From Sphingomonas sp. SORGH_AS_0950 (GTDB lineage: Bacteria > Pseudomonadota > Alphaproteobacteria > Sphingomonadales > Sphingomonadaceae): 64,000 nt of DNA. The position numbers were made by a program, and so were the translations under genes. The DNA is taken from the NCBI RefSeq assembly GCF_030818415.1, contig NZ_JAUTAE010000001.1, forward strand, positions 2,878,001 to 2,942,000, in the 5' to 3' direction. The notes under the pieces were generated by a model. It was given only the letters and a program-made list of their open reading frames with translations, was not told the origin of the DNA and searched no databases. This document shows, piece by piece, positions 22,336-38,883 of the stretch (position 1 is its first letter; the number at the start of each line of letters is the position of its first letter).

Positions 22336-23079
22336 ATGCGGACGATGCGAACGGGCTGGGGAATGGCAGCGATCCTGATGCTTGTTCTGGCGATGCCGGG
22401 CGGCGCGGTCGCGCGGGAGACGGCGGGCTATCTGGCGGCGGGCGAGGGGCTGGACCTGGCCGCGATCCTTCCCGGCCCGCCCGCACCGGGCAGTCCGCGC
22501 GCGCTGGCCGATGCGCGGGTCTTTCGCGACAGCCGGACGCTCGCCGGCACACCGCGCTGGCAACAGGCGACGGCGGACGTGTCGAGCGATCTGGGCGATC
22601 GCTTCGCCGGGGCGCTGGGCTTTCGACCGGACTGGAGCAAGCTGCCCGTCACCCGCGCGCTGATCGCGCGGTTCGATGCCGACCGTTCGGCGGCGATCGG
22701 CGCGGCCAAGCGGCACTGGCAGTCGCCGCGCCCCTTCATCGGCACCGACCTGCCCATTTGCGAGCCGCGCACCGCCTCGCTGATCGCCAATGGCGATTAT
22801 CCCTCGGGTCATACCGCACATGGCTGGGGCTTTGCGCTGCTGATGGCGGCGCTGATCCCCGACCGGGCGCAGGCGATCCTGGCGCGCGGGCGCGACTATG
22901 GCGACAGCCGCTGGATCTGCGGATCACACAGCCAGAGCGCGGTCGAGGGCGGCTATCTGGCGGCCAGCGCGGTGTTCGCGCGCGAACAGGGCCAGCCCGG
23001 ATTCCGCCGCGACATGGCGGCGGCGGCCGAGGAGCTGGCGCGCTACCGCCGGGGCCTTACAGCCGCCAGTCGACGCTGA
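22336..23079 (+). CDS. Secreted class A acid phosphatase (PAP2 superfamily, PhoC-like)
   Basis: 247 residues from the ATG at 22336, which has AGGGGA eight nt upstream; an in-frame ATG at 22309 would add nine residues. The signal peptide ends GGAVA. The three-part PAP2 signature is present: KRHWQSPRPF, YPSGHTAHGW and SRWICGSHSQSAVEGG, where SGH and the last His act in phosphoryl transfer. These periplasmic nonspecific acid phosphatases release phosphate from organic phosphomonoesters. Its 3' end overlaps the 3' end of the convergent TonB receptor gene by 23 nt. Confidence 0.93.
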   Translation: MRTMRTGWGMAAILMLVLAMPGGAVARETAGYLAAGEGLDLAAILPGPPAPGSPRALADARVFRDSRTLAGTPRWQQATADVSSDLGDRFAGALGFRPDWSKLPVTRALIARFDADRSAAIGAAKRHWQSPRPFIGTDLPICEPRTASLIANGDYPSGHTAHGWGFALLMAALIPDRAQAILARGRDYGDSRWICGSHSQSAVEGGYLAASAVFAREQGQPGFRRDMAAAAEELARYRRGLTAASRR

Positions 23080-25858
23080 ACGCCACGACGCGGCCCTGCT
23101 GCGCGCGGACGGTGATGACGCCGTCGCTGGCCCCGGCGCGGATCTCGCCGCCCAGCGCGTCGCCCTGCATCACCGCGATCCGGTCGAGGATATTGGTCGC
23201 GCGCAGCCGCAGCGTCAGGACGGGTGTCGCTGCCCAGCTCGCACCCAGATCGACCAGCGCGAAGCCGGGCAGCGCCAGCGTATTGGCATCGTCGGCAAAG
23301 CGCCGCCCCATCGCCGAGACATCCCCGTCCAGCGTCCAGCCGGTGCCGGGCAGGGTGGCGCTGGCCGACAGGCTGGCCATCAGACGAGGCACCCGGCGCG
23401 GCATCCGGCCGCTCAGGTCGGTGACGACGGGGGGGCCGCCGGTGGCGTCGGCGAAGCGATAATGGCGCAGCCTGGGGTCCTGCCAGGTCAGCGTGCCGCG
23501 CAGCGCCAAGCCCGGCCGGGGACTGGCATGGCCGCTGAGCTCCAGCCCCAGCGTGCGCGCGGTCGCGTCATGCTGCCCCACCTGCACCGCGCCGGTCGCG
23601 GGATCGAGCGACAGGTCGGGCAGCGCGATGTCGGGAAAGCGGCTGGCGAACAGCGTGGCGTCCAGCCCCGCACCGCCACGCCGCCAGATCAGCCCCAGCT
23701 CGGCCTGCTCGACCGACAGGGCGCGGACGGCATCGCCGCTGCCGATGCGGAACGCGCCGGGATCGGGCAGCCGCATCGCACGGGTCGCGCGGGTGAAAAG
23801 CCCCAGCCGGTCGGACGCCCGCCAATGCAGCGCCAGCGTCCCCGCCGTCCGCGCGATGCGGGCCCGGCGCCGGTCCCATATCCCCGATCCGATCGCGATC
23901 CGGTCATCCGCCAGCGTCGACGGATCGCCGCCATTCACCGTCGTCGCGCGCTCGACCCGTGCGGACAGCGCGGCGCGCTCGTGCCGCAGGCCCCAGTCGA
24001 GCCGCCAGCCTGGCGCGAACCGCCATTCGTCGGCGGCATAGAGCGCGACCATGCGCTGGTGCCCGTCGACCGCCTCATAGGTCGATCCCCGGCTCGACAA
24101 TCCGCCATCGGTCGCGCGGCCCAGCACCCGTCCGGCGGCATCCAGCGCGACGAGATCGAGTAACCGGCCCTGTCCCCGCGCCTCGACCAGCGCACGCGCG
24201 ACCGCGCGGCGGAAGCGCCAGTCATAGCCGACGCCGTACAGCCCCAGCGTCAGTTCGTGATGCCCCGCCGCCTCCAGCGCGCGCGAATAGGACAGGTCGG
24301 CGATCGCTTCGGACAGGCGGACATCGGCAGCGACGGGGTTGAGCGTCACCACCCGGTCGTTGCCGGGCAGCGGTGCGAAGGGGCTGTCGTCGCCGACATG
24401 GCGCAAGGCGGCCTGGGCGGTCCCCGGAAAGGCGGCGGCGAGGCGCGGCAACGCCTCGGCGATGGCGCTCGCCGCCGGAATCGCGCTGCCCGAGGAGGAC
24501 AGTGCATAGCGCGTGGTGCGCGACCGGCGGCCATGCGCACGTAACGCCAGCGTGCCCCCGCCCATATCCTGGGTCAGCGCCAGCGAGGGCATGGTGAGCC
24601 GGTTGCGATTGTTCCGCCCCAGCGGCCGCTCGCCCAGCGCGGCGAAGCGCAGGGTCGCCAGCTCGGGGCCGAAGAAGCTGTCCCGGCGCGGATCGAAACC
24701 GGGCAGCGGCGCCAGCCCGCCGCCGACATAGCGCATCGGAAAGGACGAGATGTTGAGCGTGTCGTCGGCCAGCCCGCGCCATGCCAGCGTCAGCCGCCCG
24801 CCCCGCCAGTCGTGATCGACCCGCGCGCGGATTTGACCGCCGCCCAGCGTCGCGGCGATGCGCCGCACCGTCGGATCGCGCGCCACCGACCCGCCGACGA
24901 TCGCGCGCCAGCCGGGGGCGATGGGGCCGGTCGCATAGCCTTCCCAGCGGACCAGCCCGTAATCGGTCAGCGTCGCGCGCATCTCGCCGCCGGGCCGCCC
25001 GGCGGGGGCGCGGGTACGCATGTTGAGCACGCCGCCCGGCGCGTTGCTGGCAAAGATCGCGGAGGGGCCGCCGCGCACATAATCGACCGTCTCGACCATC
25101 AGGTCGGGGCGGACGAACTGGTCGATATCGGTCCAGGGCAGCGTGTCGTGCTGCACCGGCAGGCCGTCCTCCTGCACCGCGATCGCCTGATAGCCGTCGA
25201 GCGGGATGCCGCGCACCCGGACGGTGTTCGCCGCGGTTCCCGCCGAGGTGTCGACCCACAGGCCGGGCAGGCCCGACAGCATCTCGGCCAGGCTTTGCGG
25301 CGGCCGCCGCGCCAGTTCCACCGCGTCCAGATGCGAGGCGGAATAGCTGCGGTCCAGTTCGCCCTGCACGTCGGTGCCGCGTCGTCCCGACACGATCACC
25401 TCCTCGCCGGTCACGGGCGGCGGCGGCGGCGGGGGCGGGGAGGGGGCGCGGCGTGGCGGCGTGACCTTGGGCGGCAGCGGTCGGCTGGCCCGCACCACGA
25501 TTCCGCCCGGCATCCGGCGACAGGACAGTCCGGCCGGGCGACACCAGCGGTCGAGCGCGCGCGACAGCCGCAGCGTCCCCTTCAGCGCGGGCGCCTGGCG
25601 ACCGGCCAGGTCGGCGGGCCGAGCGACCAGCGCCTGCCCCGCCTGCCGCGCCAGCCGGTCGAGCCCGGCCGCGACCGTCCCGGCGGGCAGGTCGACGCGC
25701 AGCATCGGGTCGTCCTGCCCGGCGGCCAGCACCAGCGCGGCGAGCAGCATCATCGCCGCCCCGCCGCGTCCTGCGCGCCCATCACTGTCCGACCGTCGCC
25801 ACCCATTCCGCCACCACAGGAGCCGCGCTCTTGCGCGCCGCCGCCCCGGCATCGCCAT
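23057..25858 (-). CDS. TonB-dependent receptor with N-terminal STN domain (FecA-like)
   Basis: About 933 residues. A hydrophobic export segment (MMLLAALVLAAG) follows an unusually long basic N-terminus, so the true start is uncertain: ATGs at 25858 and 25753 are both possible. An STN/secretin-like domain follows (LRVDLPAGTVAAGLDRLARQAG...RPADLAGRQAPALKG), then a Pro-rich linker, TonB box (GEEVIVSG), plug (SQASHLD-like region; LSGLPGLWVDTSAGTAANTVRVRGIPLDG; GGPSAIFASNAPGGVLNMRT) and barrel. The STN domain usually contacts a FecR partner, but none lies immediately beside this gene. The plug resembles iron or cobalamin-type receptors. Confidence 0.85.
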   Translation of the reverse strand: MAMPGRRRARARLLWWRNGWRRSDSDGRAGRGGAAMMLLAALVLAAGQDDPMLRVDLPAGTVAAGLDRLARQAGQALVARPADLAGRQAPALKGTLRLSRALDRWCRPAGLSCRRMPGGIVVRASRPLPPKVTPPRRAPSPPPPPPPPVTGEEVIVSGRRGTDVQGELDRSYSASHLDAVELARRPPQSLAEMLSGLPGLWVDTSAGTAANTVRVRGIPLDGYQAIAVQEDGLPVQHDTLPWTDIDQFVRPDLMVETVDYVRGGPSAIFASNAPGGVLNMRTRAPAGRPGGEMRATLTDYGLVRWEGYATGPIAPGWRAIVGGSVARDPTVRRIAATLGGGQIRARVDHDWRGGRLTLAWRGLADDTLNISSFPMRYVGGGLAPLPGFDPRRDSFFGPELATLRFAALGERPLGRNNRNRLTMPSLALTQDMGGGTLALRAHGRRSRTTRYALSSSGSAIPAASAIAEALPRLAAAFPGTAQAALRHVGDDSPFAPLPGNDRVVTLNPVAADVRLSEAIADLSYSRALEAAGHHELTLGLYGVGYDWRFRRAVARALVEARGQGRLLDLVALDAAGRVLGRATDGGLSSRGSTYEAVDGHQRMVALYAADEWRFAPGWRLDWGLRHERAALSARVERATTVNGGDPSTLADDRIAIGSGIWDRRRARIARTAGTLALHWRASDRLGLFTRATRAMRLPDPGAFRIGSGDAVRALSVEQAELGLIWRRGGAGLDATLFASRFPDIALPDLSLDPATGAVQVGQHDATARTLGLELSGHASPRPGLALRGTLTWQDPRLRHYRFADATGGPPVVTDLSGRMPRRVPRLMASLSASATLPGTGWTLDGDVSAMGRRFADDANTLALPGFALVDLGASWAATPVLTLRLRATNILDRIAVMQGDALGGEIRAGASDGVITVRAQQGRVVAFSVDWRL

Positions 25859-25996
25859 CGACGGATGCGCGCCGATACCGCGCAAATATGTAGCGCGCAT
25901 GTCAGTCGCCCCCGACATTCCACGGCTTCGCGAAGATGCCGCTGAACCGATCTGGATCAAGAATCGTTACGCCCGATCATCGATGGAGGACTGGAC

Positions 25997-26764
25997 GTGG
26001 CGGGTCAGACAGTGATCGTGACGGGCGCGGAATCGGGCATCGGCGCGGCATGTGCGGAGGCGTTCGGCGCACGGCAGGCGCGGGTGGCGGTGCTCTATTA
26101 TGCGGATGCCGCCGCCGCCGAAAAGACCGCCGGGGCGGTGCGCGCCGCCGGGGGCGAGGCGATCACCGTCCAGGCGCATGTCGATGACGAGGTCTCGGTC
26201 GACCACGCCTTCGCGACCGTCGAACGGCATTGGGGGCCCGCCGATGTGCTGGTCAATTCGGCCGGGCTGAACATGTCGGGCGTAACGGTGCGCGACATGA
26301 CGCTGGCCCAGTGGCGGCGGCTGCTCGACACCGACCTGACGGGCGCCTTCCTGACCTCGCGCCGGTTCCTGACCGGGCGGGGCGCGGCGAAGGGTGATGC
26401 CGCGATCCTGCACATCTCGTCGATCCACGCCTATGCGGTGCGCGCCGGGGGCGCCGATTACTGCGCGGCCAAGGGCGGGCTGTCCAATCTGGTCGAGACG
26501 CTGGCGATCGAGGAAGCGCCGCACGGCGTCCGCGTGAACGCGATCGAGCCGGGTATGATCCTGACCCCGATGAACGCGCATGCGCAGGCCGATCCGGTCT
26601 ATCGCCGAACACTCGAGCAGAATATTCCGATGGGGCGCGCGGGGAATGCCTCGGAAGTGGCCGACCTTGCCGTCTTCCTCGCCTCGGACAAGGCACGCTA
26701 CATCACCGGCGCACGGATCGTCATCGATGGCGGCCTGTCGCTGATGCAGGCGCTCGGCGCATGA
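25997..26764 (+). CDS. SDR-family NAD(P)-dependent oxidoreductase
   Basis: 255 residues, first gene of a five-gene coupled operon. It starts at GTG with GGAGGA six nt upstream. The Rossmann motif is TGAESGIG, the NNAG equivalent is NSAGLN, and catalytic Ser and Tyr-x-x-x-Lys are in HISSIH and YCAAKG. The C-terminal IVIDGGLSLMQALGA is typical of classical SDRs of the glucose-1-dehydrogenase / FabG type. The substrate cannot be read from sequence. Next to a GH130-like gene, a sugar or sugar-derived alcohol is plausible (inference). The stop overlaps the next start (ATGA). Confidence 0.92.
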   Translation: MAGQTVIVTGAESGIGAACAEAFGARQARVAVLYYADAAAAEKTAGAVRAAGGEAITVQAHVDDEVSVDHAFATVERHWGPADVLVNSAGLNMSGVTVRDMTLAQWRRLLDTDLTGAFLTSRRFLTGRGAAKGDAAILHISSIHAYAVRAGGADYCAAKGGLSNLVETLAIEEAPHGVRVNAIEPGMILTPMNAHAQADPVYRRTLEQNIPMGRAGNASEVADLAVFLASDKARYITGARIVIDGGLSLMQALGA

Positions 26765-27723
26765 TGGCCCCCGACGCGCGGAGCCCGGTCGCCGATCCGC
26801 ACCGCAAGGACCGGGTGGTCGACGCCCCGCTCGACCTCGACTTCAACGTCAAGCGGATCGAGGATGTGACGCTGTCGGGCCCGCCCGCGCTGATGGCCCG
26901 CGACCTGATGAGCCCCTATGTCTGGCGCGAGGCGGACGGGCGATGGGGCATGATGGTCCGCGCGGTGGTCCGTCCGGGCGAGACGCTGACCGATACCGGC
27001 GTGATCTGGTCGGGATGGAGCGAGGACGGGCGGCATTTCACCATGCTCGACACCCCCTCGATCGCGCCGGGGCCGGGCGACCATGACGCGGGCGGGGTCG
27101 AGGACCCGACCGTCGTGCGCCGCGAGGACGACTATCTCGTCTATTATTCGGGCGTGCTGGCGGACCATTCGCATGGCGAGCTGTCCTATGCCACCGGCCC
27201 CGCGCTCGACCGGCTGGCCAAGAGCGGTGTCGCGCTGGCTTCCTCCAAGTCCGAGGGCAATACGAAGGAGGCGACCGTCGACCGCACCGCCGACGGACGC
27301 TGGCGGCTGTTCTACGAATATGCCGCCGACCAGGCCTCGCGCATCGGCATGGCGATCGGCGCGGACGTCGCGGGCCCCTGGACCGAACAGCCCACCCCCT
27401 TCATGCCGCGCGAGAACAGCTGGGACGACTGGCATCTGTCGACCGGCCCGCTGTTGACCGACGACAAGGCGTGTCCGGTCATGTTCTACAATGGCGCGAC
27501 GCGCGATGCGCGCTGGCGGATCGGCTGGGTTGCGTTCGACGAACATTATACCCGCGTCGTCGCGCGCGGGATCGAGCCGCTGATCCTGCCGCCGCCCGCC
27601 GATGATCGCGGCGCCACCGACATCGCCTTCGCCGCCTCGGTCGTGGTGGCCGAGGATGGCATCTGGCTTTACTATTCGCTGGAGGATCGGCGATTGTCAC
27701 GGGCGCTCATCCGGCGCAGTTGA
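26761..27723 (+). CDS. GH130-like glycosidase/phosphorylase family protein
   Basis: 320 residues with the five-bladed propeller style of GH130/GH43-related proteins: GVEDPTVVRREDDYLVYYSG, KEATVDRTADGRWRLFYEY, WHLSTGPLL..KACPVMFYNGATRDARWRIGWVAFD and a final IWLYYSLEDRRLSRALI. GH130 enzymes phosphorolyse beta-mannosides or hydrolyse related linkages. The conserved Asp in VEDP and the repeats are visible, but subfamily assignment is not possible by eye. No signal peptide is seen, so it is cytoplasmic. It starts inside the SDR stop codon and ends 37 nt before the NRPS-like gene. Confidence 0.8.
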   Translation: MMAPDARSPVADPHRKDRVVDAPLDLDFNVKRIEDVTLSGPPALMARDLMSPYVWREADGRWGMMVRAVVRPGETLTDTGVIWSGWSEDGRHFTMLDTPSIAPGPGDHDAGGVEDPTVVRREDDYLVYYSGVLADHSHGELSYATGPALDRLAKSGVALASSKSEGNTKEATVDRTADGRWRLFYEYAADQASRIGMAIGADVAGPWTEQPTPFMPRENSWDDWHLSTGPLLTDDKACPVMFYNGATRDARWRIGWVAFDEHYTRVVARGIEPLILPPPADDRGATDIAFAASVVVAEDGIWLYYSLEDRRLSRALIRRS

Positions 27724-27760
27724 GCCGTCTCCCGTCCTTGTTCCCCAGGAAAGCGTATCG

Positions 27761-30700
27761 ATGTCCGCAGATACCGAAGCCTCCGTCGCGCCGAGCATCC
27801 ATGCCTCGATCGCTCCGGCCCCGGCGCTGCGGCCCGACCGCCCCTATGCGCGGGACGAACTGCTCCACGAGCTGTTCGACGCGACCTGCCGGGACCGGGG
27901 CTGGACGACCGCGCTGAAGCTGATCGGCGCGGACGAGGAATTCGGCCGCTCGACCGAATGGACCTATGACATGCTGGCGCAGCGCAGCCTGTCGCTGGCG
28001 CACCGGCTCCGCGCGCTGGGGGTGGGCAGGGGCGACCGCGTCGTCCTGTGCCTGCCGCGCGGGCTGGACCAGTATATGGCGATCCTGGGCGTGCTGCGCG
28101 CCGGGGCCGCCTATGTGCCCGTCGACTGGGGCTATCCGCAGGACCGCATCGCCTACATCATCGAGGATAGCGGCGCGGCGCTGACCATCACCACGAGCGC
28201 GCGGGCGGGGGAGATTCCGGGGCGGACTTTGTGCCTGGACGCCGAATTGGGCGATCTCGCCGCCGAGCCGCCGCTGCCGATGGGGCGCACGGTGACGGAA
28301 TCGGACCCGCACGACCTGGCCTATATCATCTATACCTCGGGCACGACCGGGCGGCCCAAGGGGGTGATGATCACCCATGCCAATGCCTGCCATCTGGTCC
28401 GCTCCGAAAGCGCGATCCTGGCGCTGGAGCCGGGCGACATCGTGTTCGGCGGGTTCAGCCTGGCCTTCGACATGTCGGTCGAGACGATGTGGAGCGCCTT
28501 CTTCGTCGGCGCGAAACTGCTCGTCGCGACCGAGGCGCTGGCGTCGAGCGGGCCCGATGTCGCGATCGCGCTGGCCGAGGAAAAGGCGACCGTCTGGCAC
28601 GTCGTCCCCTCGCTGATCGCGCTGGTCGAGCATCCGGTGCCCACGCTCCGCCTGATCAACATGGGGGGCGAGGCGTGCCCGGCGGACCTGCCGCGTCGCC
28701 TCGCGCGGCCGGGCTTGCGGCTGCTCAACACCTATGGCCCGACCGAGACTTCGGTGACCGCGACCTGGACCGAGGTGCAGCCGGGCAAGCGTATCACCAT
28801 CGGCAAGCCGCTGCCCGGCTATACCGCCTGGATCGTCGACGAGGCGTTGCAACCCGTGGAAGCGGGGCAGGAGGGCGAGCTGGTGATCGGCGGCCCCGGC
28901 GTCGGCGTCGGTTACGTCAACCGCCCCGACCTGACCGCCGAGAAATTCACCATGACCCCGTTCGACACCGTGTCGGGCGGGCCGGAGCGCATCTATCGCT
29001 CGGGCGATCTCGTCCGGCTGGACGCGGCGGGCGACATCGATTTCGTCGGGCGCATCGACACCCAGGTCAAGATTCGCGGCTTCCGCGTCGAACTGGCCGA
29101 GATCGAGGCGGTGATCGGCGAGGCTCCGGGCGTCGCGCAGGCGGTCGTCCATCTGTTCACCGATGCCGACGGCTCCGAATTCCTGGCCGCCTTCCTCGTC
29201 GCGCGCGGCGGCGAGACGATCGACATCGCCGATATCAAGGCGCGCGTGACCGAGCGGCTGCCCAATTACATGCGCCCTGCGGCGTACCAGCAACTTGTGG
29301 CGCTGCCGACGCTGCCCGCCTCGGGCAAGGTGGACCGCAAGGCGCTGCTCAAGCCCGAGGTGACGGTCGACACCGGTCGCGCCATCGAGGCCCCCGCGAC
29401 CCCGATGGAGGAACAGCTCCATCGCATCTGGGCCGAAGCCTTCGCGCCGCAGCCGGTATCCGTCACCGACGATCTGTTCGAGGATCTGGGCGGCCACTCG
29501 CTGAAGGCCGCACGGCTCGTCTCGGCGGCGCGCAAGGTGCCGGGGCTGGCCGGGCTGTCGCTGGAGGATCTCTACGCCGCGCCGACCATCCGCGCGCTGG
29601 CGCTGCGCATCGGCGGGACCGCGCCCGTCGCGGTGGCGACCGAGGCGAGTTTCCACCGCGTCCCCGAATGGCAGCGGATGCTGTGTGTCGCCGCGCAGAC
29701 CGTCGCGCTGCTGCCCATCTATACCATTGCCGGGCTGCAATGGTTCTTCCCTTACGTCGCCTATACCCATCTGGCGGGGCGGATGAGCCGGATCGACGCG
29801 CTGGTCCTCAGCGCGCTATTCTTCACCATCGTCCCCGTCGCCTCGATGCTGTTCTCGATTGCGGCCAAGTGGCTGATCGCCGGGCGGTTCAAGGCGGGCG
29901 AGTATCCGCTCTGGGGCTGGACCTATTTCCGCTGGTGGCTGGTGCGCCGGATCATCGCGGTGACGGCGACCCCCTATCTGGCGGGCACCCCGATGATCCG
30001 GGGATATTATCGGATGCTCGGCGCCAGGATCGGCAAGCGCGCCTATATCGGCACCGGCATCATCGACACCGCCGACCTGTTTGCGTGCGGCGACGACGCC
30101 ATCGTCAGCGACCAGGCGGTGCTGGCGACCAGCTCGGTCGAGCGCGGGTTGCTGCGGTTGGGCACGGTCCATCTCGGCGCACGGTCCTTTGTCGGGTCGC
30201 AGGCGGTGGTCGGGCGGAATGCGCGGCTGGAGGAGGATGCGATCCTCGACGACATGTCCGCGCTCCCGGCCGAGACGGTGATTCCGGCGCGGCAACGCTG
30301 GACCGGATCGCCCGCCGCCTTCGACCAGATAGTGGAGCCCGGCACGGTGCGGACCGCGAAGAGCGGCACGGCGTCGCTGGGGCTGCTGATCGGCGCGCTG
30401 CTGCTGCCGATCCTCGCCATCCTGCCCATCGCACCGGGCCTGATCGCGCTGATCGAGCTGGACTGGGCGACGACCGGCTATGGCTATATGCTCGTCTCGC
30501 CGCTGCTCGCCGCGACCTATATCGTAATGATGTGCGTGCTGACCGTGTTGGCCAAGCGGTTGCTGCTCGGCCGGGTCGCGCCGGGCGTCTATGACCTGAA
30601 CAGCGGCTTCTATGTCCGCTACTGGATGGTCAAGCAGATCAACGATCTGGCGCTGCGGCTGCTGCACCCGATCTTCGCGACGCTGTACGTCATCCCCTGG

Positions 30701-31765
30701 TATCGCGCGCTGGGCGTCAAGGTCGGGCGGCGCGCGGAGATTTCGACCGCCAGCGCGATCATCCCCGACCTGGTCGAGATCGGGCCGGAGAGCTTCATCG
30801 CGGACTCAGTTATCTTCGGCGCGGCCAAGATCGGGCACGGCACCATCGAGCTGGCCCATACCAAGATCGGCCGCCGCAGCTTCATCGGCAATTCCGCGCT
30901 GCTGCCGACCGGCGCGCAGATCGGCGACGAGGTGTTGATCGGCGTCCTGTCCAAGCCCCCCGCCGACCCCGCGCTCGCGACCGAGGCGGGGAGCACCTGG
31001 TTCGGCTCGCCCGCCTTCAAGCTGCCGGTGCGCCAGGTCGCGACGATGTTCGACGAGGGCGCACGCTTCAACCCGTCGCGCGGCCTGATCGCCACGCGTC
31101 TGTCGATCGAGGCGATCCGCACCACCCTGTCGCTGACCGCCTTTCTGGTGTTCTTCAGCATGTTGCTCTCGGTGGTCGGCGATCTCGACGATCTGGAGCG
31201 CGGCGGGCTGGTCATCGTCTCGACCTTCCCCTTCCTCTATCTGGGCTTTTGCCTGGCCTGCGGGGCGTTTGTGCTGGCGCTGAAATGGCTGGTCGTCGGG
31301 CGGTACAAGACGACCACCGCGCCGCTGTGGAGCACCTTTGTCTGGCGGACCGAGCTGGTGACGGCGACCTATGAGAATCTGGCGGTCAGCAACCTGCTCG
31401 AACCGTTGCGCGGCACGCCGTGGATCGGGCTCTATCTGCGGCTGATGGGCGCGAAGGTCGGGCGGCGCTGCTATATCGACACCACCGACCTGACCGAGCA
31501 TGATCTGGTCACGATCGGCGATGATGTCGCGCTGAACGACTATGCCGGGCTCCAGACGCATCTGTTCGAGGACCGGGTGATGAAGGTCGGCGCGATCACC
31601 GTCGGCGACCGCGCGACCATCGGCTCGCTGGCGATCGTGCTCTACGATGCCGAGATCGGGGCGGACGCGCAGCTGGGCGACCTGTCGGTGGTGATGAAGG
31701 GCGAGACGCTGCCCGACGGCACCAACTGGGAAGGCAGCCCGGCGCGCATCGTCACCGGGGGATGA
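27761..31765 (+). CDS. Membrane-bound Pls-like NRPS: A-T-(2TM + soluble domain)x3, epsilon-poly-amino-acid synthetase family
   Basis: 1334 residues (Streptomyces epsilon-poly-lysine synthetase is 1319). The adenylation domain spans about 30-530 (A3 YTSGTTGRPKG, FDMSVETMW, YGPTE, A10 SGKVDRKAL). A carrier domain has Ser580 in DLGGHSLKA. Six predicted transmembrane helices (about 641-663, 681-704, 872-897, 910-936, 1121-1140, 1150-1178) are separated by three soluble domains with hexapeptide-like turns, the TIGR02353 'NRPS terminal domain'. There is no condensation or thioesterase domain. In Pls the three soluble domains join residues iteratively at the membrane. My manual ten-residue code is D-M-E-H-I-M-T-V-T-K; the acidic residue at the third position hints at a basic amino acid. 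An AGGAAA SD precedes the ATG. The product is unknown. Confidence 0.9.
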   Translation: MSADTEASVAPSIHASIAPAPALRPDRPYARDELLHELFDATCRDRGWTTALKLIGADEEFGRSTEWTYDMLAQRSLSLAHRLRALGVGRGDRVVLCLPRGLDQYMAILGVLRAGAAYVPVDWGYPQDRIAYIIEDSGAALTITTSARAGEIPGRTLCLDAELGDLAAEPPLPMGRTVTESDPHDLAYIIYTSGTTGRPKGVMITHANACHLVRSESAILALEPGDIVFGGFSLAFDMSVETMWSAFFVGAKLLVATEALASSGPDVAIALAEEKATVWHVVPSLIALVEHPVPTLRLINMGGEACPADLPRRLARPGLRLLNTYGPTETSVTATWTEVQPGKRITIGKPLPGYTAWIVDEALQPVEAGQEGELVIGGPGVGVGYVNRPDLTAEKFTMTPFDTVSGGPERIYRSGDLVRLDAAGDIDFVGRIDTQVKIRGFRVELAEIEAVIGEAPGVAQAVVHLFTDADGSEFLAAFLVARGGETIDIADIKARVTERLPNYMRPAAYQQLVALPTLPASGKVDRKALLKPEVTVDTGRAIEAPATPMEEQLHRIWAEAFAPQPVSVTDDLFEDLGGHSLKAARLVSAARKVPGLAGLSLEDLYAAPTIRALALRIGGTAPVAVATEASFHRVPEWQRMLCVAAQTVALLPIYTIAGLQWFFPYVAYTHLAGRMSRIDALVLSALFFTIVPVASMLFSIAAKWLIAGRFKAGEYPLWGWTYFRWWLVRRIIAVTATPYLAGTPMIRGYYRMLGARIGKRAYIGTGIIDTADLFACGDDAIVSDQAVLATSSVERGLLRLGTVHLGARSFVGSQAVVGRNARLEEDAILDDMSALPAETVIPARQRWTGSPAAFDQIVEPGTVRTAKSGTASLGLLIGALLLPILAILPIAPGLIALIELDWATTGYGYMLVSPLLAATYIVMMCVLTVLAKRLLLGRVAPGVYDLNSGFYVRYWMVKQINDLALRLLHPIFATLYVIPWYRALGVKVGRRAEISTASAIIPDLVEIGPESFIADSVIFGAAKIGHGTIELAHTKIGRRSFIGNSALLPTGAQIGDEVLIGVLSKPPADPALATEAGSTWFGSPAFKLPVRQVATMFDEGARFNPSRGLIATRLSIEAIRTTLSLTAFLVFFSMLLSVVGDLDDLERGGLVIVSTFPFLYLGFCLACGAFVLALKWLVVGRYKTTTAPLWSTFVWRTELVTATYENLAVSNLLEPLRGTPWIGLYLRLMGAKVGRRCYIDTTDLTEHDLVTIGDDVALNDYAGLQTHLFEDRVMKVGAITVGDRATIGSLAIVLYDAEIGADAQLGDLSVVMKGETLPDGTNWEGSPARIVTGG

Positions 31766-32331
31766 CGCCGCTCTGGCATGACGGCGCGCTGGACGCGTTG
31801 GACGCGGATGGCCCGGTGATCTGGCGGACCGAGGATCCGGGGGCGGGGCGGCGAGCGGGGCTGGCCGCGCGGTTGCTCGCCCGGCTCGGCAGCCTCGATC
31901 CGCAGGCGGTCATGCTGGCGCGCAGCCCGGCGGGGCAGCCACAGGTCGTGGTCCCGCGCGGCTGGCATCTCGGCCTGTCGGGGCGCGGCGGCCAGTGCCT
32001 GATCGGTGCGGCGCGCCGGCCGATCGCGGTCGACCGCGAGCTGATCGAGGAGGCCCCGCCGCTCTGGGACATGCTGACCCCGCTGGAAGCACAGGCGCTG
32101 CGCGCCGCGCCGCCGGGTGACCGGTCGCGGCAATGGCTGCGCCGCTGGACGATCAAGGAAGCGCACGCCAAGCTGGTCGGCGCGCCCCGGCGGCTGGCGG
32201 CGGAGTCGATCGAGACCCGGCTGATCGATTCGGTCATGGCGACAGCGACCTGTGAGGGCATGTCTCGCTGCTGGAGCCGTGAGGCGGGTGGCGCGTTCGA
32301 CACCGTGGCTCTTTGGGACGATACGCTATGA
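31762..32331 (+). CDS. 4'-phosphopantetheinyl transferase (Sfp-like)
   Basis: 189 residues. The transferase signature WTIKEAHAKLVG (family W-x-x-K-E-A-x-x-K) is at about 129-140, with the Mg-binding Glu at 133. The upstream metal Asp region reads PIAVDREL, a slightly degenerate form of the G-[IV]-D-x-E motif. It converts the apo carrier domain of the adjacent synthetase to its holo form using coenzyme A. It starts inside the synthetase stop codon (ATGA) and its stop overlaps the next start, so the partner relationship is strongly implied by coupling. Confidence 0.9.
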   Translation: MTPLWHDGALDALDADGPVIWRTEDPGAGRRAGLAARLLARLGSLDPQAVMLARSPAGQPQVVVPRGWHLGLSGRGGQCLIGAARRPIAVDRELIEEAPPLWDMLTPLEAQALRAAPPGDRSRQWLRRWTIKEAHAKLVGAPRRLAAESIETRLIDSVMATATCEGMSRCWSREAGGAFDTVALWDDTL

Positions 32332-32867
32332 CCGACCTCGCCGTCCGCCGTTACGAACAGGCCGACTACGCCGCCGTGCTGGCGATCTTCGACGACAATC
32401 GGGCGGACTATTTCGGCGCGGGCGACCGCGAATGGCTGGAGGAGACGTTGGACGATCCCGACGGCCCGGCCTTCGTGGTTGTGCTGGACGGGGTGGCGGT
32501 GGCGTTCGGCGGCTATGAACTCTGGGAGCATTACAACAAGGCGCTGCTCTATTGGGGCATGGCGGCGCGGCGTTGCCACGGCATGGGGCTGGGCCGGTTG
32601 CTGCTGTTCGAGCGGCTGCTCCATATCGCCACCCATGCCGATCCGCCGACCCGCTATGTCACCGTGGACACCTCGCCACGGGTTGCGCCCTTTTTCCAGC
32701 GCTGCGGCTTCGAACAGACCGCCGTCTGGCCCGAGGGCTATCGCTCGGGCATGACGATGCACGAATTGCGCTTCGATCTGGCGGAGGTCCCGGCGGCAAC
32801 GCTGAGGGCATGGCGCGACGCGGCACTGGACAGGGCGCGGCGCCGTCTGGGTAGCGTCGGGGGCTAG
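32328..32867 (+). CDS. GNAT-family N-acetyltransferase
   Basis: 179 residues with the GNAT fold: beta1-alpha1 AVRRYEQADYAAVLAIFDDN, a central FVVVLDGVAVAFGGYEL, the acyl-CoA pyrophosphate loop region RRCHGMGLGRLLLFERLL (Q/R-x-x-G-x-G/A type) and the C-terminal VAPFFQRCGFEQT. It is the last gene of the operon and overlaps the PPTase stop (ATGA). Linked to a poly-amino-acid synthetase, it could acetylate the polymer, its monomer or a self-toxic product; this is inference, since GNAT substrates cannot be predicted here. Confidence 0.85.
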   Translation: MTDLAVRRYEQADYAAVLAIFDDNRADYFGAGDREWLEETLDDPDGPAFVVVLDGVAVAFGGYELWEHYNKALLYWGMAARRCHGMGLGRLLLFERLLHIATHADPPTRYVTVDTSPRVAPFFQRCGFEQTAVWPEGYRSGMTMHELRFDLAEVPAATLRAWRDAALDRARRRLGSVGG

Positions 32868-33054: not shown

Positions 33055-33181
33055 AAGCCCCTCTCCCGGCAAGGGGAGGGGTTGGGGAGGGGCGATGGCC
33101 ACGGGTTATGGGCTCGGTGAGACCCCATGCCCTCCCCCGACCCCTCCCGCTTGCGGGAGGGGAGAGGTCCGAACGGGCGTC
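33055..33181. repeat. 127-bp GC-rich repeat, tandem copy 2
   Basis: A second copy of the 32875-33001 repeat, differing at few positions (for example CAAGG for CAGGG and CCGAACGG for CCGGACGG). Its last two bases overlap the stop codon of the DUF3857 gene. Confidence 0.9.
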
Positions 33182-36100
33182 AGAACGTACCCCAACCCCC
33201 CGCCATCCCGGCATAGCGGACCGCGCGGCCATATTTGGCGAGTTCGGCCTGCACCTCGGGCAGCGCGCGGGCCTTGTCCATCGTCTCGACCATCTCGGCC
33301 TCCAGCGACGTGCGGTGCGGGGAGGGCGGCTGGATCAGGAACAGGCCGATCGCCTGCTCCCGGCTGTCCTCGGCGCGCAGGCGGGCGATCAGATGCTCGC
33401 CGATCGCCTTCACGTCGCCCCGGCATGCCGCGGCGGAGGTCGTCGCGCTCCAGTTCTCGGCGGGCTTGGCGGCCAGCCGGTCCTCGTCGGCTTTCGCCTC
33501 CGCCGCATGGCCCAGCCGGTGCTGCGCACAGGCGCGGTTGGACCAGATCCACATCTTGCCATAGAGGCTGATCTTCGGGCCCTGCCCGGCCTCCAGCGCG
33601 GTCAGGCTGTCGATGCTCGCCTGATAGCGTCCGGCGGCGGTCAGCGTCTCGGCGCGGTTTATCGCCAGCGAGACCAGCTCGGGATATTGCTCCATCCCCA
33701 GCGCCAGCATCCGGTCATATTGCGCCACCGCCTCGTCGGTCCGGCCCAGCGAGCGCAGATTCTCGGCATATTCGTTGGCCAGCCAGAAGCCGTCATGGCC
33801 GACCATCTCGATCCGCGCGGTGTCGGTGGCGAGCGCCTTGCCCGCCGCGATCGCCTCCTGATAGCGGCCGAGCGTGCGCAGCGTGCGCATCTGTTCGGTG
33901 ACCGCCTTGTAATCGCGCGGCGCGGCGCTGGCGGCGGCCTCCGCGCTGGCGGCGGCGCTGGTCAGCGACTGGCGGAAGCCGTCGGCGACCAGCCGCTCCA
34001 TGTCGCCCCACAGCGGCTGGTGCCGCCTGTCGGTGGCCAGCGCCAGCAGCGCGGGCGTCGGCGGGGTCCTGGCCAGCCCGGCCCGCACGGCGGCGAGATC
34101 GCCCCGGCGGCTCTGCGCCACGATCGCGCAGCCCAGCATGCTGCCGCCGAAGGCGGTGCGCGGCGATTGCTGCCATTCGCTGTCGGACAGGACGATGCAC
34201 AGATCCTCATGGGCCTTCGTCCGCGCCTCGGCGGGCAAGGTCTGGATCTTCTGGAGTGCGGCGCGAACCCATGCATCTTCGAGTCCGGTGACGATCGCGG
34301 GCTGGGCGGCACGGGTGCGCTGCAAGGCCTTCACGACCGAGTCCGGCGTTCCCAGATCCAGCTCATAGGCGATCCACATCCGGAACACCTCGGGATTGCC
34401 GTCGAACTGCGCGGTCGCCGACTGGAATGCGGCGAGCGCCGCCTGCGGACGCCGCAGATCGGACAGCACCGCCGCCTTCAGCCCGTCGACCATCCCCGCC
34501 ATCGGCGAGGGGTGCGGCAGCTTTTCGGACATCGCGGCGATCAGCGACAGCGCCTCGATCTTCGACGGCTGGTCCGGCTTCTGGATCAGCGCCATCAGCT
34601 TTTCCAGGTCGGGCCGGATCGTCGCCGTCAGGGCGGGGTCGAGCCCGGCAGGCATTCCCGAGGGGCGCGGGGACTTTTCCAGATAGAATTCGATGCCCGT
34701 CTCGTTCGAGACCTTCTCCGACACGGCATAGACCGCCTCCGCCTCGGCGGCGGGCACCATGTCGCGCGGGCCGGTGTCGAGTCGATAGACGATGTGCAGG
34801 CCGTCGGGCAGCTTGGTCGAGCGGCGCGAGAAGGCCACCGGCCCGCCCTTGGCCTCGACATCGTCCAGCGGCTCGAGCAGCCGGTCCTTGACCCGCAGGT
34901 CGATCGTCTGCTCGTTCACCACATGGTCGGGCAGCGCCAGCGGCTGGCGGCGCGGATCATCCTGCCGGTCGGGCAGGATGTCCTGTGCGGCATAGGCGCG
35001 GGTGATCAGCTTGGCGGACAGCTTGGCCTTGTCGAACGCGGCGCGCGACATCGTATAGTCCTCGACCATCGTCACCACATTGGCGTCGCGATCGTCGGTC
35101 TGGACCAGCGGCTTGCCCTCGACCAGTTCGGGAAAGCGCTTGCGATAGAAAGCGAGATTGTCGTCCGCGATCTTGCGCGCGGAGGTCGAGGCCCAGCTGC
35201 CGCGCACCTGGTCGGCGCGGGCGTCGGTATAGCGGGTCACGACGTGCAGGGTCATCGCGACCTCGGCCTTTTCGTCGACCGCGAATTCCTCGACCACGGT
35301 CATGCGCCCGGCCCGCTCGCCATAGCCCGCCATCGGCTCGAGCGCCGCCTGGCCGTCGCGGATCGGCAGCGCATGGCCCAGATTGGAGGGGACGATCGCG
35401 GTCCCCCGGCCGCCGCGATGGGTGCCGGTCGGGTCGATCCACAGCACCCGTCCGTCGAGGACCGCACGGACGATGACATGGTCGAACACCAGCGGCGAGG
35501 GCAGGCGCTCGGTCAGCCGGGGGCCGTCGGTCGTCGACACCAGCGCAGGCACCGCGTCGATGCCCAGCCGCCGCAGCGCCACCGCCAGCAACAGGCTCTT
35601 GTCCTTGCAGTCGCCGTAACCGCGCGCCAGCACCACGCCGGGCCGCCGCGGCACGAACGAGCCCTCGCCCAGCTCCTCACCGACATAGCGGATATTGTCC
35701 TGGATATAGCGGGTCGCGGCGGTCAGCCGGTCGGCGGGGGCGGGCGACGCCTTGGCGATGGCGTCCAGCCGCGCGGCGAAGTCGGCGGGCAGCGTGTCGT
35801 CGCCCCGGTAGAGCCCGGTCGCCCAGGTCGCGACCTCGCCCCAGTCGCGCATCGTCGAGATCTCGCCCAGTCCCCACTGGAACACGCCGCCGGGCACATT
35901 GTCCTCGCCCTTCATCGGCGCGGGATCGGTGACGCTCCATTCCCATTCGGTGCCGCGATCGGTCTTGCGCGGCGGAAAGGCGATGTCGCTGTTGATCGCC
36001 TTGAAACGCGGCGTCATCCCCTCGGGCCAGACGAACCGCAGGCTGCGCATCGCCAGCGGCTCGGAGAAACGCTGGGAGAAACCGTAAAAGGCATGGCCCG

Positions 36101-36677
36101 CCCACAGGCTGGACCGGGCATGGACCGTGGTCGCGTAATCGACGATGTCGCCGACCCGCACGTCGCGCAGATTGGCGATGACCTTCATCGTGCCGCTGAC
36201 GATCCCGTCCTCCAGATCGTCCTCGCGCTCGACCACGCGGAACTGCGTGTCGCGGGTCAGGTCGATGACCTTGCCGTCGCGGATCAGGTGGACGAAGTGG
36301 ACGCCCAGCGTCTCGAAGGCCGGATTATAGGCCATGGTGATCTGACCGGCCGACTCCAGCCCGCTGCGGTTGATGACCTTGCTCGTCAGGCGGAACCAGT
36401 CGTCATGACCGTCCGGGCGCGAGCGATATTGCGCATCGTTGAGCAGATAGACGACGCCGTCCTGCGCCCGCTCCACGCGCGGTTTCGTCGCCTCGGGGAT
36501 GGCAAGCGTGCGGACCCAGTCGGGCATCGGCTCGACCGCCGGGGCCTGCGCGGCGGCGGGGCCCGCGGTCTCCACCGCCACGGCGACCGGTCGGGCGGCG
36601 TGAAGCGGAAAGGCGGCGACGCCCGCCATCAGAAGCGCCGGCGCCAGCCGGTGCCGCGGCACGAATATGGTACGCAC
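33180..36677 (-). CDS. DUF3857 / transglutaminase-like protein with C-terminal TPR region
   Basis: 1165 residues with an N-terminal signal-like hydrophobic segment (ALLMAGVAAFPLHA). A DUF3857 domain (about 60-230) is followed by a transglutaminase-like fold with Cys in RGYGDCKDKSLLLAVALRRLG, His in PLVFDHVIVRA and Asp in VLWIDPTGT. This full Cys-His-Asp set suggests catalytic competence. A DUF3858-like stretch follows, and the C-terminal about 450 residues form helical TPR-like repeats (LGRTDEAVAQYDRMLALG, AGRYQASIDSLTALEAG). It is predicted periplasmic. The function of this common Bacteroidetes/proteobacterial architecture is unknown. No neighbour suggests a substrate. Confidence 0.88.
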   Translation of the reverse strand: MRTIFVPRHRLAPALLMAGVAAFPLHAARPVAVAVETAGPAAAQAPAVEPMPDWVRTLAIPEATKPRVERAQDGVVYLLNDAQYRSRPDGHDDWFRLTSKVINRSGLESAGQITMAYNPAFETLGVHFVHLIRDGKVIDLTRDTQFRVVEREDDLEDGIVSGTMKVIANLRDVRVGDIVDYATTVHARSSLWAGHAFYGFSQRFSEPLAMRSLRFVWPEGMTPRFKAINSDIAFPPRKTDRGTEWEWSVTDPAPMKGEDNVPGGVFQWGLGEISTMRDWGEVATWATGLYRGDDTLPADFAARLDAIAKASPAPADRLTAATRYIQDNIRYVGEELGEGSFVPRRPGVVLARGYGDCKDKSLLLAVALRRLGIDAVPALVSTTDGPRLTERLPSPLVFDHVIVRAVLDGRVLWIDPTGTHRGGRGTAIVPSNLGHALPIRDGQAALEPMAGYGERAGRMTVVEEFAVDEKAEVAMTLHVVTRYTDARADQVRGSWASTSARKIADDNLAFYRKRFPELVEGKPLVQTDDRDANVVTMVEDYTMSRAAFDKAKLSAKLITRAYAAQDILPDRQDDPRRQPLALPDHVVNEQTIDLRVKDRLLEPLDDVEAKGGPVAFSRRSTKLPDGLHIVYRLDTGPRDMVPAAEAEAVYAVSEKVSNETGIEFYLEKSPRPSGMPAGLDPALTATIRPDLEKLMALIQKPDQPSKIEALSLIAAMSEKLPHPSPMAGMVDGLKAAVLSDLRRPQAALAAFQSATAQFDGNPEVFRMWIAYELDLGTPDSVVKALQRTRAAQPAIVTGLEDAWVRAALQKIQTLPAEARTKAHEDLCIVLSDSEWQQSPRTAFGGSMLGCAIVAQSRRGDLAAVRAGLARTPPTPALLALATDRRHQPLWGDMERLVADGFRQSLTSAAASAEAAASAAPRDYKAVTEQMRTLRTLGRYQEAIAAGKALATDTARIEMVGHDGFWLANEYAENLRSLGRTDEAVAQYDRMLALGMEQYPELVSLAINRAETLTAAGRYQASIDSLTALEAGQGPKISLYGKMWIWSNRACAQHRLGHAAEAKADEDRLAAKPAENWSATTSAAACRGDVKAIGEHLIARLRAEDSREQAIGLFLIQPPSPHRTSLEAEMVETMDKARALPEVQAELAKYGRAVRYAGMAGGWGTF

Positions 36678-37991: not shown

Positions 37992-38028
37992 GATGGAACG
38001 ATCGCCCGATCGATCGGGTTGGAGTCCG

Positions 38029-38883
38029 ATGCGGATCCACCATCTCAACTGCGGGACCGACTGCCCCCTGGGGGGTGCGTTGTTCGACGGGCGCAGCCAT
38101 GGGCCGCTGGGGCATCTGGTCTGCCACTGCCTGTTGATCGAGACCGAGGCGAGCGGGCTGGTGCTGGTCGATACCGGCTATGGCCTGCGCGACGTGGCGC
38201 ATCCGCATCGCCGCCCCGATCCCCGCATCACCCTGCCGTGGCGGGCCATGCTCAACATCCGGCTGCGCGAGTCGGAAACCGCGATCCGCCAGATCGAGGC
38301 GCTGGGCCATCGCGCCGGGGATGTCCGGCACATCGTGCTGACCCATCTCGACTTCGACCATGCGGGCGGGCTGGAGGATTTTCCCAATGCGGCCGTGCAT
38401 GTCATGCGCCGCGAATATGACGATGCCGCCGGGCCGCATGCGGGGATCGTCGCGCGCAACCGCTGGCGGCCCCGGCAATGGGATCAGGTCGCGCGGTGGC
38501 AGTTCCACAGCGCCGGGGGCGAGGGCTGGTTCGGGTTCGATGCGGTCCGCGACCTGCCCGGCCTGCCGCCCGAAATCCTGCTGGTGCCGCTTCCCGGCCA
38601 CACATGGGGCCATGCGGGCGTGGCGATCCGACAGCCCGGCGGGCGATGGCTGCTCCATGCCGGGGACGCCTATTTCTATCGCGGCGAGATGCGCGAGGCG
38701 AGGCGCCGCTGCACGCCGGGCCTGCGCGCCTATCAGCGGCTGATGGAGGTCGATGCGCGTGCGCGTCTGGCCAACCAGGCCCGGCTGCGCGACCTGTCGA
38801 TCGCACGCCGCGACACGGTCACGCTCGTCTGCGCGCATGATCCGGTCGAATGGGAGCGGTGCCGCGACGGCTATCCGCTATAG
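38029..38883 (+). CDS. MBL-fold hydrolase, N-acyl-homoserine-lactonase-like
   Basis: 284 residues from the ATG at 38029 (GGAG eight nt upstream; the ATG at 37993 adds 12 residues). The start MRIHHLNCGTDCPLGG is typical of the lactonase-like MBL group. The metal motif reads LTHLDFDHAGGLEDF: HxDxDH rather than the lactonase HxHxDH, so the second His ligand is Asp. Later ligands are His in PGHTWGHAG and Asp in LHAGDAYFY. Lactonase activity is therefore uncertain, and another cyclic ester or thioester substrate is possible. It is monocistronic by spacing. Confidence 0.85.
   Translation: MRIHHLNCGTDCPLGGALFDGRSHGPLGHLVCHCLLIETEASGLVLVDTGYGLRDVAHPHRRPDPRITLPWRAMLNIRLRESETAIRQIEALGHRAGDVRHIVLTHLDFDHAGGLEDFPNAAVHVMRREYDDAAGPHAGIVARNRWRPRQWDQVARWQFHSAGGEGWFGFDAVRDLPGLPPEILLVPLPGHTWGHAGVAIRQPGGRWLLHAGDAYFYRGEMREARRRCTPGLRAYQRLMEVDARARLANQARLRDLSIARRDTVTLVCAHDPVEWERCRDGYPL

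Follow-up and report, generated by a model that had tools for sequence, protein, structure and literature searches.

Two described enzymes bear most closely on the gene analyzed here: PosA of Acinetobacter baumannii, a delta-poly-L-ornithine synthetase, and Pls of Streptomyces albulus, an epsilon-poly-L-lysine synthetase. The structure and kinetics of the PosA adenylation (A) domain have been published; there is no structural information on its C-terminal domain, where the layout of transmembrane (TM) segments and left-handed beta-helix (LbH) domains is a predicted model (PMC10522769). How Pls/PosA enzymes, which lack a condensation domain, form their isopeptide bonds has yet to be settled. 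We analyzed a nonribosomal peptide synthetase (NRPS) gene in a 64,000-nt stretch of the Sphingomonas sp. SORGH_AS_0950 genome (hereafter the window; coordinates are positions in the window, Table 1). The synthetase is a member of the Pls/PosA family, whose layout and product class are already known. What is new here is a cassette of 4'-phosphopantetheinyl transferase (PPTase) and GNAT genes with a genus-wide phyletic link to the synthetase, and a lone invariant histidine. The sequence evidence makes it likely that the locus encodes a PosA-type cationic homopolymer synthetase, from loading by the PPTase through to polymerization of ornithine. A figure legend on Sphingomonas gene clusters spells out NAPAA (PMC9716278), so that, as far as the legend goes, the enzyme class has already been noticed in the genus. 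None of the open-licence PMC papers listed, judged by title and abstract opening, deals specifically with a Pls/PosA enzyme of Sphingomonas or with a GNAT that accompanies such an enzyme.

Table 1. Features of the synthetase locus, in window coordinates
Feature	Coordinates	Strand	Basis or remark
TonB receptor	23057-25960		flanking
SDR oxidoreductase	25997..26764	+	PF13561; neighbor, probably outside the system
GH130-like protein	26761..27723	+	PF04041, 29.6 vs 26 bits; neighbor, probably outside the system
Pls/PosA-family NRPS (A-T-membrane polymerizing domain), 1334 aa	27761..31765	+	TIGR02353, Pfam, motif like a ribosome binding site
Adenylation domain, about aa 56-529	27926..29347	+	TIGR02353/Pfam searches, pocket code alignments
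Carrier (T) domain, aa 552-615; Ser580 codon 29498-29500	29414..29605	+	PF00550, conservation
C-terminal polymerizing domain, three (two TM + LbH) repeats	29678..31762	+	AlphaFold2 model, hydropathy, PDB fold matches, invariance
4'-Phosphopantetheinyl transferase, 189 aa	31762..32331	+	PF01648, 28.5 bits vs gathering 25
GNAT-fold N-acetyltransferase, 179 aa, putative capping/self-protection enzyme	32328..32867	+	PF00583, 32.8 vs 20.7 bits
DUF3857/transglutaminase protein	33180-36677		flanking

Synthetase layout and pocket code

The synthetase open reading frame is intact from its ATG to a TGA at 31763-31765, with AGGAAAG, resembling a ribosome binding site, a few bases 5' of the start codon. 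The Pls/PosA family profile TIGR02353 (NCBIfam) matched it with 762.7 bits (cut-off 423.1; 3.6e-229) over aa 645-1328 and profile positions 2-695 of 695, the full length of the profile, and no other locus in the 4.39-Mb genome passed that cut-off. Pfam searches placed AMP-binding at aa 56-385, AMP-binding_C at 447-517, PP-binding at 552-615 and Hexapep repeats in the C-terminal part. No condensation or thioesterase family was among the seven Pfam families of the protein, and a profile search for the condensation domain PF00668 found no match in the whole genome. Ser580 of the carrier domain was kept in 168 of 168 aligned sequences. An earlier note on this DNA had proposed a Pls-like homopolymer synthetase with one A domain, one carrier (Ser580), no condensation or thioesterase domain, and three soluble domains that each follow two TM helices, and had named a TIGR02353 search as a check. 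The profile match, the Pfam anatomy, and the hydropathy and predicted fold described below bear out this family and anatomy; the lysine type and the specificity code given in the note did not hold, and the overlapping PPTase and GNAT genes went unmentioned there.

Alignment gave the pocket code DMEHNGTVTK (D237, M238, E241, H280, N300, G302, T324, V332, T333 and K523). The earlier reading, DMEHIMTVTK, had slipped in register at its fifth and sixth positions, and the suggestion that a code like none known might mean a different monomer goes back to that slip. We dropped that register since the GGEA motif sets position 6 on its first Gly, a placement taken from the PheA motif. The register of DMEHNGTVTK is preferred because it reproduces published codes and keeps a constant offset of +20 to PosA residues Asp217, Met218, Glu221, His260, Asn280, Thr304, Val312 and Ser313. 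The code of PosA is DMEHNGTVSK (PMC10522769), identical to that of the window protein at nine of ten positions, the sole difference being Ser to Thr at position 9. In the PosA pocket set of Asp217, Met218, Glu221, Thr304 and Ser313, four of the five residues are matched exactly (D237, M238, E241 and T324), and Thr333 stands in place of Ser313 with the hydroxyl retained. This near-identity makes L-ornithine the best-supported predicted monomer, rather than lysine or an unfamiliar amino acid. Position 2 is Ala in Lys enzymes, Phe in those for DAP/DAB and Gly in the beta-Lys enzyme (PMC10522769); Met238, as in PosA, thus leaves the epsilon-poly-lysine type of the earlier note a poorer fit.

DMEHNGTVTK was found in 131 of the 168 aligned sequences, including that of the window, though these sequences are related, partly near-identical, and not independent witnesses; one listed homologue of less than 1200 aa had been excluded beforehand. 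The same columns yielded DSECYGGVTK, the published code of a Bdellovibrionales enzyme (PMC10522769), in five divergent homologues (L082-L084, L097 and L104), and in five further homologues DLEDIGSVVK, which nearly matches the published DLEDIGTV(T/V/I)K (PMC10522769). A Janthinobacterium homologue (L101) carries DMEHNGTVSK exactly as PosA does and scored 516.6 bits against the PosA crystal sequence 8g95; its alignment to the window protein is gapless through the pocket region. Among the 60 PDB matches listed, PosA was the top core-only chain for the window protein (296.3 bits, the next such chain at about 215 or below), and, although shorter, it outscored 7wew, the complete A domain of Pls (256.8 bits). 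A glycine-type A domain, suggested by LgrA scores (554 bits), was rejected because each row with such a score combines two matched stretches; the single-module LgrA chain 5es5 scored 276 bits over A and T.

Downstream PPTase and GNAT genes

The PPTase start overlaps the NRPS stop by 4 bp (ATGA), and the next junction, from PPTase to GNAT, has the same 4-bp overlap. The PPTase protein, whose gene and one other were the sole PF01648 matches found genome-wide, holds the stretches VDRE and WTIKEAHAK, which we take to be PPTase motifs. The AlphaFold2 model of the GNAT protein (pLDDT 92.5) gave GNAT-fold matches. Among them were RimI and Ard1, both of which are N-alpha-acetyltransferases, as well as SpeG and the tabtoxin resistance protein.

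We surveyed 295 genomes of the genus, counting an NRPS as close at 68% identity or more and a GNAT at 60% identity or more. An NRPS relative at E 1e-100 was present in 58 genomes, 52 of them at 68% identity or more and six at 36-38% only. A strong PPTase match (E < 1e-15, a line set after the match list had been seen) occurred in 51 of the 52 close-NRPS genomes and in 0 of the other 243; in the sole genome lacking a match, G551, the NRPS sits at a contig edge. The GNAT was found in 40 of the 52 and again in 0 of 243 (Fisher 4e-39, uncorrected for shared descent, the genomes being related and not 295 independent trials). In 37 of these 40 genomes a distance of 554-833 bp separates it from the NRPS match, and in the remaining three it was 3.8 kb away, 8.9 kb away and on a separate contig. 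A GNAT match of 41% was also seen in two genomes that do not belong to the NRPS set. In the two genomes that have the GNAT at a distance from the NRPS (L184:6402-8252 and L185:13202-14950), it adjoins a TPR protein that contains a pair of retropepsin-like aspartyl protease domains. The phyletic association of the downstream genes, together with the independence of the upstream SDR and GH130-like genes from the NRPS described below, makes NRPS-PPTase(-GNAT) the most likely functional unit.

The named close homologues of the synthetase are from Sphingomonas, and its distribution is sporadic, with 9 of 298 genomes in a family-wide sampling, that of the window included, above the TIGR02353 cut-off. 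In a quick tree of 44 sequences, where L101, L099 and L109 were flagged as long branches of unsure place, the window protein fell in a clade of 24 rows (SH-aLRT 100), in which all members with a name come from Alphaproteobacteria. Its clade also holds P0099, P0100, P0102, P0104, P0105, P0107, P0108, P0110-P0114, P0116, P0119 and P0120, at about 59-60% identity, and the switch of pocket codes among them to DVEFNGTVAK, DIESIGTVAK and DIECNGTVTK suggests monomer changes. One genome of the genus, G453, has two homopolymer synthetases (L080 and L081), one ornithine-coded and about 70% identical to the window protein, the other DLEDIGSVVK-coded, about 40% identical and adjoining a PPTase-like gene (PF22624). 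NRPS matches in two pieces were seen at G413:C44:32414-36384 and G511:C1:731208-733707; the G413 pieces join at residue 463, where they share 4 bp, and a gene split or frameshift is possible there. A contig labelled as a Klebsiella pneumoniae metagenome-assembled genome (L103) carries a DAESIGTVIK-coded synthetase that groups with a Holophagaceae one, so the contig may have been binned wrongly.

A wider neighbor survey covered 32 less close loci (nine at about 70% identity) and 128 of 146 candidate neighbor reading frames, 18 being left out; these came from a crude gene caller, by which genes were missed or merged. The PPTase family was the commonest among the 128 proteins (13 members), and the next families, including class-III aminotransferases, had three members each. 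No recurring exporter or peptidase was among the 25 commonest Pfam families of this set.

Membrane domain and a conserved histidine

Hydropathy identified three pairs of hydrophobic segments in the C-terminal part of the synthetase (640-659/675-708, 868-903/908-940 and 1118-1145/1148-1181). Modeling of the last 709 aa with AlphaFold2 (pLDDT 91.9, pTM 0.91) gave the same three repeats, and the model matches LbH acetyltransferase folds in the PDB. Among the eight histidines of the terminal segment, H1267 (codon 31559-31561) alone is invariant over 52 aligned sequences; in the larger set, 167 of 168 sequences have it and the other has a gap. E1270, K1275, K1313, D772, D1015 and N1044 are conserved as fully as H1267. 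We propose H1267 as a candidate catalytic base. The sites that match it in repeats 1 and 2, located by eye, are not histidine, so that one asymmetric active site would be the simplest reading of the C-terminal domain, and the synthetase may polymerize its substrate via a single asymmetric LbH site using His1267.

Predicted pathway, alternatives and known systems

In the pathway that we favor, the overlapping PPTase would place phosphopantetheine on Ser580, as the gene overlap and co-occurrence suggest. The A domain would then activate L-ornithine, with Asp237 holding the alpha-amine and Glu241, Thr324 and Thr333 holding the delta-amine, by analogy with the near-identical PosA pocket, and polymerization would yield a short poly-L-ornithine with delta linkages. 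No class-III aminotransferase was found among the immediate neighbors of the window gene, which fits ornithine, since ornithine is already a central metabolite. The weakest step is a fourth, in which the overlapping GNAT would acetylate free alpha-amines, either on the polymer or on its intermediates, and would thereby keep their charge and their harm to the producer in check; we put this step forward only tentatively.

Several points weigh against this pathway, in which the substrate, the linkage and the polymer are all inferred. The window protein shares only 39% identity with the PosA-coded L101, and the clade that holds L101 and the DLEDIGSVVK enzymes adjoins its own clade without including it. 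Codes vary within its own clade, so specificity appears labile, and the S313A substitution lowered PosA activity 183-fold (PMC10522769) at the very position where the window protein has Thr. In total score, the shorter PosA core came below complete A-T chains from other NRPSs, 5u89 among them (341 bits, aa 68-615). The VIA Z of the LbH match, about 8, is middling by that tool's standard. For the cassette, besides the late-set PPTase line and the kinship of the genomes, weak PPTase matches (1.2e-8 to 7.5e-6) occur in seven genomes without a close NRPS, and 12 of the 52 close-NRPS genomes lack the GNAT, all of them with 69-71% NRPS identity. In addition, no GNAT family was among the 25 commonest Pfam families of the 128 neighbor proteins.

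A somewhat less probable role for the GNAT is product tailoring rather than protection, which would yield a polyornithine that is N-acetylated or N-capped and electrically quieter than the known cationic homopolymers. Its overlap with the PPTase, the fact that within the genus relatives sharing at least 60% identity occur in close-NRPS genomes alone and the RimI and Ard1 matches would agree with tailoring, but the fold leaves the substrate unfixed, as SpeG and the tabtoxin resistance protein match as well, and no export or degradation gene was identified that would place the step in a pathway. In either role, it is possible, though less likely than not, that sphingomonads make a novel type of homopolymer, delta-linked polyornithine with alpha-amines acetylated by a linked, dedicated GNAT, whether for self-protection or as a finished, charge-tuned product. 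No cationic homopoly(amino acid) system with built-in acetylation is known to us, and this one would be the first. How Gram-negative producers would tolerate their own polycations is, as far as we know, an open question.

We consider it rather unlikely that the same type of enzyme uses another diamino acid (diaminobutyrate, lysine or beta-lysine) and is a synthetase of epsilon-poly-lysine or poly-DAB. In favor of such a monomer, all of the 168 aligned sequences have Glu at pocket position 3, regardless of the other code positions, and PosA itself activates Lys weakly (PMC10522769). Position 2, however, is that of PosA and not the Ala, Phe or Gly of the other enzymes (PMC10522769), and in the quick tree the six DFE-coded loci group apart, in a clade of their own. 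A class-III aminotransferase adjoins three of these six (L091, L106 and L107), in line with diaminobutyrate supply, whereas none was found among the immediate neighbors of the window gene; the contrast is weakened by the ornithine-coded L077, where such a gene lies about 1.5 kb past the PPTase.

A five-gene pathway that includes the SDR and GH130-like proteins and leads to, for example, a glycosylated or sugar-linked product is very improbable: the genes are tightly packed in one direction (4-bp SDR/GH130 overlap, 37-bp gap from GH130 to NRPS), but GH130 relatives occur in 129 of the 295 genus genomes, the pair adjoins the NRPS in only 5 of 33 neighborhoods examined, some on short contigs, and six loci carry the pair without the NRPS. 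Nucleotide similarity to those six loci ends at 27716-27744, and, with this end before the NRPS and GH130 so widespread, we read the pair as ordinary neighbors. The flanking TonB receptor (only weak matches, in three of 33 cassette neighborhoods) and the DUF3857/transglutaminase protein (no match in the 33) were rejected as cassette genes. Further downstream, 37993-38883 encodes a metallo-beta-lactamase-fold protein that resembles quorum-quenching N-acyl homoserine lactone lactonases, far under curated cut-offs.

The preferred PosA-type pathway would make the window an alphaproteobacterial model with an ornithine-predicted synthetase, a linked PPTase, a candidate tailoring or immunity GNAT and a named residue, His1267. 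PosA likewise has the A-T-six-TM layout, with an LbH membrane domain predicted in both enzymes (PMC10522769), and the two pocket codes differ only in Ser or Thr at position 9; the window differs from the PosA system in its head-to-tail overlapping PPTase and GNAT genes. Pls shares the domain order and TIGR02353, but has Ala at pocket position 2 (PMC10522769) where the window protein has Met, and its A domain scored below the PosA core. The trimeric LbH acetyltransferases, such as galactoside and maltose O-acetyltransferases, share the left-handed beta-helix with the window model; the window enzyme differs from them in having three repeats fused in one membrane chain, and its acyl donor would be the carrier thioester, whereas they use acetyl-CoA.

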